Positions 11,381 to 13,443 of a DNA stretch of 51,343 nucleotides are shown one piece after another. The DNA lies in contig JAITWM010000092.1 in assembly GCA_031285265.1 (NCBI GenBank), positions 1 to 51,343 on the forward strand, in the 5' to 3' direction. The notes under the pieces are model-generated. The model was given only the letters and a program-made list of their open reading frames with translations, had not been told where the DNA came from and ran no database searches. Every line of letters begins with the position of its first letter. Positions within the stretch are counted from its first letter, which is position 1. Position numbers and translations under genes: made by a program. The DNA is from Lysobacteraceae bacterium. Its GTDB lineage: Bacteria; Pseudomonadota; Gammaproteobacteria; Xanthomonadales; Xanthomonadaceae.

Positions 11381-12451
11381 TTACGCCGCCACCGCATGAT
11401 TGCGCCGCTGTATCCGCACTGCCTCTGCCAATCTTTCCAGCACCGACACCGAAGTTTCCCAATCGATACAGCCGTCGGTGATGCTCTGCCCATAGGTCAA
11501 AGCCCGCCCTGCCGCCAATTCCTGGCGACCGCCGACCAAATGACTCTCCACCATCAGTCCGAAAATCCGGTTCTCGCCTGCTTCGATCCGCTGTGCGATG
11601 GCATCGACGACACGCGGCTGATCCTCCGGTTTTTTGTTACTGTTCGCATGGCTGGCATCGACCATGATCCGCGCCGGCAAGCCTACTTTGTGCAGGATCA
11701 GACTGGCTGCCTCTATATTCGGCGCATCGTAATTGGGCTCTTTGCCGCCCCGCAGGATGATATGGCAATCCGGGTTCCCCGCCGTGGCCGCAATGGCCGA
11801 ACGCCCATCCTTTGCCACTGCCAGAAAATGGTGCCGATGCGATGCGGCCATTACGGCATCGGCGGCAATCCGGACGTTGCCATCCGTACCATTCTTGAAT
11901 CCGACCGGACAGGACAATCCGGATGCCATTTCCCGATGGATCTGGCTTTCGGTTGTCCGTGCGCCGATCGCTCCCCAGGACACGAAATCAGAAATGTACT
12001 GAGGCGTCGTCGTATCCAAATATTCACAACCGGCCGGCAGTCCGATCCGATTGATCTCCTGTAGCAATGAACGCGCCAGGCGCAGCCCTTTGTTGATGTT
12101 GAAACTGCCATCCAGGTCCGGGTCATTGATCAGCCCTTTCCAACCGACAGTAGTCCGTGGTTTCTCGAAATACACGCGCATCACGACTTCCAGCCTATCG
12201 CTCAGCTGATCGCGCAACGGCCGCAGCCGCCGGGCATATTCGATCGCAGACTGCCGATCATGTATCGAGCACGGCCCGATGATCACGATTAAACGATCAT
12301 CCTGCTGCTGTAGGATTCGTTGTATCGAACTACGCGCTTTCTCCACGGTCTCCGACGCACGTTCATCGCAAGGTATTTCCTCGATCAACTGCGTAGGGGT
12401 ATGCAACACGTCTATCTTACGTATCCGTAAATCGTCGGTATTAGGTGCCAC
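11381..12451 (-). CDS. aroG: class I DAHP synthase (3-deoxy-7-phosphoheptulonate synthase)
   Basis: Condenses phosphoenolpyruvate and erythrose 4-phosphate, the first committed step to chorismate and the aromatic amino acids. The 356 residues match the AroF/G/H family. Visible are the metal-ligand Cys of GPCSIHD (59-65), the KPRTTVGWKGL phosphate-binding stretch (about 97-107), GFKNGTDG (about 185-192) and the DASHANSNKKPEDQ block near the C-terminus. The start is a GTG (complement of 12449-12451) preceded by AGGAG with a six-base spacer. A peptide leader and intrinsic terminator directly upstream (12498-12640) indicate control by transcription attenuation in addition to the allosteric feedback known for the family. 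Which amino acid inhibits this isozyme cannot be told by eye. Confidence 0.95.
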   Translation of the reverse strand: MAPNTDDLRIRKIDVLHTPTQLIEEIPCDERASETVEKARSSIQRILQQQDDRLIVIIGPCSIHDRQSAIEYARRLRPLRDQLSDRLEVVMRVYFEKPRTTVGWKGLINDPDLDGSFNINKGLRLARSLLQEINRIGLPAGCEYLDTTTPQYISDFVSWGAIGARTTESQIHREMASGLSCPVGFKNGTDGNVRIAADAVMAASHRHHFLAVAKDGRSAIAATAGNPDCHIILRGGKEPNYDAPNIEAASLILHKVGLPARIMVDASHANSNKKPEDQPRVVDAIAQRIEAGENRIFGLMVESHLVGGRQELAAGRALTYGQSITDGCIDWETSVSVLERLAEAVRIQRRNHAVAA

Positions 12452-12497: not shown

Positions 12498-12530
12498 AAA
12501 AAAAACCGCCAGGTTCGCTGGCGGTTTTTT
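12498..12530 (-). terminator. aroG attenuator (rho-independent terminator)
   Basis: On the - strand the RNA forms ACCGCCAG (complement of 12518-12525), the loop CGAAC (complement of 12513-12517) and CTGGCGGT (complement of 12505-12512). A run of A before and eight U after extend the stem further. This perfect 8-bp GC-rich stem ends 46 bases before the aroG start codon and follows the leader peptide stop by 26 bases. It is the strongest intrinsic terminator in the window. Its 5' arm can be captured by the antiterminator segment at 12580-12588. The A run on the other side makes it potentially bidirectional. Confidence 0.9.
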
Positions 12531-12556
12531 GGATAATTCTTTCTGTTCTACGATCT

Positions 12557-12640
12557 TCAGAACGAACTCTGCCCTTCCTCCGCCAGCGGCATAGGAAATC
12601 CGTAATACCAAAAGTAATAGCGGCTACGGGAAAAGTTCAT
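12557..12640 (-). CDS. aromatic amino acid leader peptide of aroG
   Basis: A 27-codon ORF (ATG at the complement of 12638-12640, TGA at 12557-12559) that begins M-N-F-S-R-S-R and then reads Y-Y-F-W-Y-Y-G-F. In total it has four Tyr, four Phe and one Trp, a density no random frame would give. It lies in the right place and orientation to be the sensor of an attenuator: the aromatic codons (about 12602-12619) are followed by an antiterminator segment within the same ORF, then the terminator and aroG. No clear Shine-Dalgarno precedes the ATG. The peptide is expected to have no function beyond being translated. Confidence 0.85.
   Translation of the reverse strand: MNFSRSRYYFWYYGFPMPLAEEGQSSF
12580..12588 (-). 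promoter_or_regulatory. antiterminator segment of the aroG attenuator
   Basis: CGCTGGCGG on the - strand, inside the leader ORF (its Pro-Leu-Ala codons), is exactly complementary over nine bases to CCGCCAGCG of the terminator 5' arm (complement of 12516-12524). When a ribosome stalls on the aromatic codons just upstream, this segment would be free to pair with that arm and block the terminator. When the ribosome moves on, it is either covered by the ribosome or folded into a local hairpin (TTCCT and AGGAA, complements of 12593-12597 and 12575-12579). These are the alternative structures that attenuation needs. Confidence 0.75.
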
Positions 12641-12665
12641 GATCGTTAATTAATAACACATCGCC

Positions 12666-12671
12666 ATTGTA
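12666..12671 (-). promoter_or_regulatory. candidate -10 box (TACAAT) for the aroG leader transcript
   Basis: TACAAT on the - strand is five of six to consensus and lies 25 bases upstream of the leader ATG, which would give a 5' end about 20 bases before the leader peptide. The -35 region at normal spacing is poor (TGTAAT at 17 bases), so the promoter may need an activator or another box may be used. Confidence 0.4.
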
Positions 12672-12814: not shown

Positions 12815-13312
12815 CTATTTCACCTCGACGGAAGAGTCAGCAGCGGCTTCGTCGATGACAGCAGGGCCACGTGCCACCCGGATACCGCGTGCCTTCATCC
12901 ACTCGTCGAATTCATCGGCAGTCATTCGCTTGCCGTTTTGCGTCATGTCGAAACGCCAAGGAGTATTGTCATACTCGGTTTGCGGCTTATACGCAGCAGG
13001 ATCGTTCGGGTTGATCACTGCTCCCGCTGTCGGCGCCGGAACAGATGCCCGCGCGTTATTGCGGCAGTTCTCGATACTGAACCGTAACAATACCCGCTCC
13101 AGAGACTCCGCCGGATCATGACTTTGCGTCAACACGCCACTCGGCATGCCCAACTGAGAAGAACGGGAATGGAGCTCGGAGGCGACCGGCGAAAGCGCCG
13201 TCGCCGGCAGCGACGAAGGCTGAAGTACCGGATTTATTGAACAATCCTGCGCCGCATCAGCGGACGCGACCATAAGCAGACTGAATAAGCCAGCGGCAAC
13301 TATACGATACAT
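12815..13312 (-). CDS. secreted hypothetical protein
   Basis: A 165-residue protein with a clear Sec signal peptide: positive start (MYR), hydrophobic core (IVAAGLFSLLMV) and an A-S-A-D-A-A cleavage region near residue 20. The mature part is polar and low in predicted structure until a C-terminal segment (T-A-D-E-F-D-E-W-M-K-A-R-G-I-R-V, about 134-149). It has two Cys in the mature part, which could pair in the periplasm. The start at 13312 was chosen because it begins at the signal peptide. Longer readings to 13435 add an implausible Cys/Arg-rich extension. A weak hairpin (12748-12765) lies downstream. Function unknown. Confidence 0.75.
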   Translation of the reverse strand: MYRIVAAGLFSLLMVASADAAQDCSINPVLQPSSLPATALSPVASELHSRSSQLGMPSGVLTQSHDPAESLERVLLRFSIENCRNNARASVPAPTAGAVINPNDPAAYKPQTEYDNTPWRFDMTQNGKRMTADEFDEWMKARGIRVARGPAVIDEAAADSSVEVK

Positions 13313-13443
13313 CCCGGCACATCCCCGAAAAGGCAATGATTCGAGTGTAAGCACGCGCTTGCATTGTTTCAAGCGAAAAAATGCCGGACTCCGGACAATA
13401 CCGAAAATCGTCCACTCACAAACCAAGTAATTCAATCATTTTC

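Follow-up and report, generated by a model that had tools for sequence, protein, structure and literature searches.

The aroG gene of the window (the whole stretch of 51,343 nt analysed here) is very likely controlled by a ribosome-mediated transcription attenuator, a reading to which we assign a probability of roughly 0.88. DAHP synthase acts as the valve that controls aromatic biosynthesis, and the textbook account of how its genes are regulated is built on the TyrR and TrpR proteins of E. coli. The initial annotation had proposed ribosome stalling in front of this gene, and the comparative evidence supports that proposal strongly through aromatic codons, partly covarying stems, a fixed geometry and association with aroG. 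The parts at the locus are as follows.

11381-12451, minus strand: aroG, the putatively regulated gene, encoding a class I-alpha DAHP synthase of 356 aa (GTG start at 12451).
12498-12530, minus strand: the whole terminator, CCGCCAG-CGAAC-CTGGCGG, with A6 before and U8 after.
12498-12512, minus strand: terminator 3′ arm CUGGCGG and U8 tract (U-run at 12498-12505), from the fold, a dedicated scan and alignment pairing.
12518-12530, minus strand: terminator 5′ arm AAAAAACCGCCAG, from the same three sources.
12516-12524, minus strand: segment 3, CCGCCAGCG, the antiterminator 3′ strand; its initial seven bases make up the GC portion of the terminator 5′ arm.
12557-12640, minus strand: leader peptide ORF of 27 aa and a stop codon, running from the ATG at 12640 to the end of the stop at 12557: MNFSRSRYYFWYYGFPMPLAEEGQSSF.
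12574-12598, minus strand: candidate protector (anti-antiterminator) hairpin UUUCC...GGAAG enclosing segment 2, from the predicted fold.
12580-12588, minus strand: segment 2, CGCUGGCGG, the antiterminator 5′ strand, within the leader ORF and complementary to segment 3 in most loci.
12596-12619, minus strand: putative regulatory aromatic codons Y8 Y9 F10 W11 Y12 Y13 (G14) F15, whose position relative to the antiterminator core is kept in 81 distinct leaders.
12649-12655, minus strand: predicted -10 element TATTAAT, from a conserved ungapped block upstream of the leader ATG; relatives have TGTGYTATCA(A/C)T at an equal distance from their ATG.

The aroG product matches the NCBIfam model TIGR00034 (aroFGH) with 523 bits against a cut-off of 173, and PF00793 is also matched. 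Direct reading bears out three elements of the initial annotation: a 27-codon ORF with four Tyr, four Phe and one Trp, its core YYFWYY being followed by G-F; a perfect 9-nt complementarity between segments 2 and 3; and a GC-stem terminator with eight U located 46 nt before aroG. Two details change. The gap between the aromatic codons and segment 2, given as about 14 nt, is 13 nt when measured from the last tandem Tyr, and a further Phe codon that had been missed, F15, ends 7 nt before segment 2. The leader is the sole ORF of at most 60 aa with at least 6 aromatics in 7 residues in the whole window, and no such ORF occurred in 30 shuffled windows. The leader-terminator region has a folding z-score of -3.9. 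The terminator hairpin is present in the fold and in the dedicated scan; a generic terminator scan listed no site at these positions, probably because the A/U pairs were counted into the stem. The hairpin is also nearly symmetrical (A6/U8) and receives a weak model score on the plus strand (12502-12530). Termination in both directions is therefore possible, and the hairpin could serve as a bidirectional terminator.

Conservation was assessed at AroG loci picked by AroG sequence alone, of which 80 came from named genomes and a further 8 from the same family. The leader ORF and the alternative pairing are conserved: an aromatic leader ORF with the same kind of terminator is present at 56 of these 88 other loci, including 8/8 of the same family. 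The gammaproteobacterial carriers include members of the Xanthomonadaceae and Rhodanobacteraceae (Xanthomonas, Stenotrophomonas, Pseudoxanthomonas, Dyella, Rhodanobacter). Alphaproteobacterial carriers are found in Bradyrhizobium, Mesorhizobium, Devosia, Methylosinus and Leisingera, and betaproteobacterial ones in families that include the Burkholderiaceae and Oxalobacteraceae (Burkholderia, Paraburkholderia, Caballeronia, Cupriavidus, Massilia, Janthinobacterium, Oxalobacter). Within the 88-locus set the attenuator is absent from enteric, Vibrio, Halieaceae and Rhodocyclaceae homologues. A search with the type I AroG of the window gave no match in 27 of the 35 other genomes of the family. When carriers are labelled on an AroG tree of 134 rows, the label needs 7 changes, against 29.7 with shuffled labels, a contrast inflated by the rows fetched with the covariance model, which are carriers by selection. 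The window falls in a well-supported group of 56 rows, all of them carriers, and the enteric-Vibrio group holds none. An aroG of 65% identity that has no leader stands on a contig of a Candidatus Melainabacteria MAG (L041), perhaps a binning error or a transfer. Upstream of aroG in an Anaerolineae MAG (Chloroflexota; L063), an ORF beginning MSRYFSFFSWYGYFAAGQVERAV lies about 190 nt from the gene and is followed by a GC-rich hairpin. Its sequence is unrelated to the proteobacterial leader and a U-run is absent; it is possibly an independent aromatic leader.

A covariance model of the element gave matches in 11 of 369 genomes of the class and 62 of 398 of the phylum. Among the loci inspected, all full-length matches with E below 1e-6 stand before an AroG homologue, as do most of the weaker full-length ones. 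Those that do not are weak (G573 at 4e-5; G765, the second match in G654, and G606 at 2e-4 or above), and the remaining matches are partial, mainly over the terminator end. In the genome of the window itself the model finds a single significant whole-length element.

The aromatic codons are conserved as a class and in position. Among the 81 distinct leaders, 96% have aromatic codons at 18-20 and at 21-23 nt ahead of the GGCGG core, and the final 8 nt before the core contain no aromatic codon. Phe, Tyr and Trp interchange at both positions, with counts of 49, 24 and 5 at 18-20 nt and of 22, 43 and 13 at 21-23 nt. A check suggested at the outset, whether aromatic codons are conserved and not the order of the residues, therefore came out in favour of the codons. 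Phe and Tyr are each present in all 81 leaders and Trp is absent from 15, among them that of the only same-genus relative (L083), in which the Trp codon TGG has become GGG (Gly) and the core reads RYYFGYY. The terminator of this relative contains a G-U pair (CCGUCAG). From these leaders we take Phe and Tyr to be the signal and Trp to be an optional addition, a narrower reading than the OR-gate for three amino acids first proposed: the Phe and Tyr inputs would stand throughout and the Trp input would not.

Both helices are conserved at the RNA level as well, as the other suggested check, co-variation of the two stems in related aroG upstream regions, brought out. In a 41-row alignment the terminator is 95.3% paired and the antiterminator 86.4% paired, and in each helix 3 pairs show compensatory changes. 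For both helices the percentage paired and the covariation score lie above those of every shuffle and every slid control, a test to which the caveat of relatedness among the rows applies. In the AGGCGG and CCGGCGG lineages a change in the terminator arm is mirrored in segment 2. Measured against the leader ORF, the GGCGG core falls in each of the three reading frames (82, 9 and 3 of 94 leaders), so what is conserved is the RNA sequence and not a peptide. In a few loci (Devosia, some Rhodanobacteraceae) the strict antiterminator helix has no more than 5-6 bp.

The sequences upstream of the leader suggest how translation begins. At 18 loci of Xanthomonadaceae and Rhodanobacteraceae a TGTGYTATCA(A/C)T block ends about 8-9 nt before the leader ATG, and in most rhizobia the pair GTGACA and CTATAT, about 17 nt apart, stops some 8 nt short of it. 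A Shine-Dalgarno sequence is missing before the leader (mean duplex energies of -0.1 and -1.8 kcal/mol) and clear before aroG (-5.6 and -6.6 kcal/mol). Because promoter-like blocks sit so close to the ATG and a Shine-Dalgarno sequence is absent, we infer that xanthomonads and rhizobia probably make a leaderless leader mRNA, whose 5′ end would coincide with the AUG or lie a few bases from it. The promoter is a prediction, and a sigma-70 consensus scan found none in the leader region. In Burkholderia a likely -10 element (TATAAA) lies about 40 nt upstream, and the leader mRNA would have a short 5′ end, again without a Shine-Dalgarno sequence. Rhizobial trpL mRNA has been reported to be leaderless (PMC10117765).

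In the mechanism that we propose, RNA polymerase would begin transcription on the leader AUG or a few bases away from it, and a ribosome would trail the polymerase through the aromatic codons. Where charged tRNA-Phe or tRNA-Tyr is scarce (or tRNA-Trp, where the codon is present), the ribosome would stall on these codons, which lie at a fixed 4-9 codons before the segment 2 core. Segment 2 would then be free to pair with the emerging terminator 5′ arm, and transcription would read through into aroG. With adequate charging the ribosome would reach the stop codon, which in the alpha- and gammaproteobacterial leaders begins about 20 nt after segment 2; at this spacing the back edge of the terminating ribosome would just clear the segment. 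Segment 2 would at first be covered and then probably be held in a local hairpin, so the terminator would form and transcription would stop ahead of aroG.

This local hairpin, the candidate protector, is predicted by folding in most lineages, and in a cross-lineage swap test its covariation is not above chance (P = 0.25). A purine-rich, Shine-Dalgarno-like GAGGAAGGG lies at 12571-12580, at the 3′ end of segment 2, and G/A-rich runs are kept after segment 2 in relatives (GGGAGG, GAGAGGG, GGUGGAG). Such a run may slow the ribosome or serve as the 3′ arm of the protector. Equilibrium folding with a ribosome footprint placed at each codon (22 loci, three footprint lengths) did not distinguish antiterminating stalls. 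For the full leader the terminator is favoured in most species wherever the ribosome is placed, and antitermination would therefore have to be kinetic. The idea that only stalls at Y12 and Y13 antiterminate was considered and found no support in the footprint folding.

Other explanations for these parts have to be weighed. The terminator might end the upstream gene or be constitutive, the aromatic ORF being a chance frame, and a same-strand ORF at 12815-13435 does end about 175 nt before the leader ATG. However, many unrelated neighbourhoods show this leader and terminator in front of aroG, and the largest frame upstream of them may lie on one strand or the other. The aromatic codons are kept with F/Y/W substitution, and the chance expectation of such an ORF is near zero; we give this explanation almost no credence. 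Arrest peptides keep specific residues. A response to the nascent peptide or to a free ligand, such as a TnaC-like arrest peptide with an aromatic compound, would not depend on tRNA charging and would fit the peptide tail PLAEEG-RSP conserved within Xanthomonadaceae, but the core residues interchange freely, the tails vary by lineage (PLADREG, SLAAGGSRSI, NSNPKAVE), and the RNA segment is retained in other reading frames despite the differing tail, all of which makes such a response very unlikely.

A repressor, be it TrpR or a protein like TyrR, might exert the main control on aroG and leave the attenuator as a minor or relic layer, a view that would agree with the TrpR homologue encoded in the genome. 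It is nevertheless very unlikely, as no TrpR-operator-like or TyrR-box-like site lies near aroG at up to 3 mismatches and the attenuator is strongly maintained across classes. A repressor may still add a layer of control. The contrast that the initial annotation drew with the repressors of E. coli accordingly holds for the sites near aroG and is weakened by the TrpR homologue. Besides aroG the genome carries a gene for a type II DAHP synthase (G000:C81:8185-9489), near which no aromatic leader was found, and one for a further protein of the DAHP-synthase superfamily, a 283-aa frame (G000:C156:13023-13805) that is probably KdsA. It is also conceivable that the main action of the leader, as RNA or as peptide, is in trans, like that of rnTrpL and peTrpL of Sinorhizobium, and that attenuation is a side effect. 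Termination at aroG would release small RNAs of about 145 nt, and rhizobial trpL, itself leaderless, has trans roles (PMC10117765, PMC7298713), yet at the loci inspected every strong full-length match places the element in cis to aroG, and we consider a mainly trans-acting leader highly improbable.

Beyond attenuation of aroG by a translating ribosome, we tentatively suggest, at somewhat less than even odds, that the element represents an old and undescribed attenuator family in the class I-alpha aroG lineage of Proteobacteria. Such a family would use a leaderless mRNA with direct ribosome loading and would integrate the charging states of two or three aromatic tRNAs where the pathway begins, at its entry enzyme; the enteric lineage would lack such a family and use repressors instead. 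By implication of the comparative data, many Proteobacteria of plant-associated, soil and opportunistic habit would depart from the TyrR and TrpR scheme and sense the charging of several aromatic tRNAs together. This is of relevance to strain engineering of aromatics. The leaders also offer about 80 natural variants for studying how codon position relates to attenuator sensitivity and a possible test case for attenuation from a leaderless mRNA.

The principle is a classic one and attenuators of DAHP synthase genes are already known or predicted, but as far as our sources show the proteobacterial aroG element has not been described before. The literature searched holds no description of it; the classic proteobacterial surveys of 2001 and 2004 lay outside that search, and an earlier prediction is possible. 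The E. coli aroF-tyrA genes are an early parallel, in that tRNA-dependent control of a DAHP synthase gene was proposed in an attenuation hypothesis (Camakaris et al., 1980, as cited in PMC2659441; mentioned in PMC8632094), but the enteric homologues examined here have no leader of the proteobacterial aroG type. The aroR-aroF attenuator of Corynebacterium glutamicum (Neshat et al., 2014), going by its summary in a review (PMC11802643), likewise places an aromatic leader peptide before a DAHP synthase gene under ribosome-mediated attenuation. As described there, aroR is actinobacterial, has a short Phe-Tyr-Phe run and responds to Phe and not to Tyr, which sets it apart from the proteobacterial aroG leader with its approximately 4-8 aromatics, comprising Phe, Tyr and usually Trp. 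In Acholeplasma, uORFC-13-1 before aroF is a predicted Phe-codon uORF with a terminator, also at a DAHP synthase gene (PMC8632094). By its description it is a prediction confined to Acholeplasma and environmental sequences, and is thereby distinct. The E. coli pheA leader (Phe_leader, RF01859) works on the same principle and gives a weak match over the whole element, which at 24.3 bits on the window, against a gathering threshold of 55, is no match by the Rfam criterion; it precedes pheA and uses Phe codons only. Rfam contains no family for the element, and none of its families reached the gathering threshold in six relatives. The rhizobial trpL-trpE(G) attenuator (rnTrpL) is alphaproteobacterial and has a leaderless leader mRNA, as predicted for the aroG leader, and differs from it in reading Trp codons and in serving another operon.
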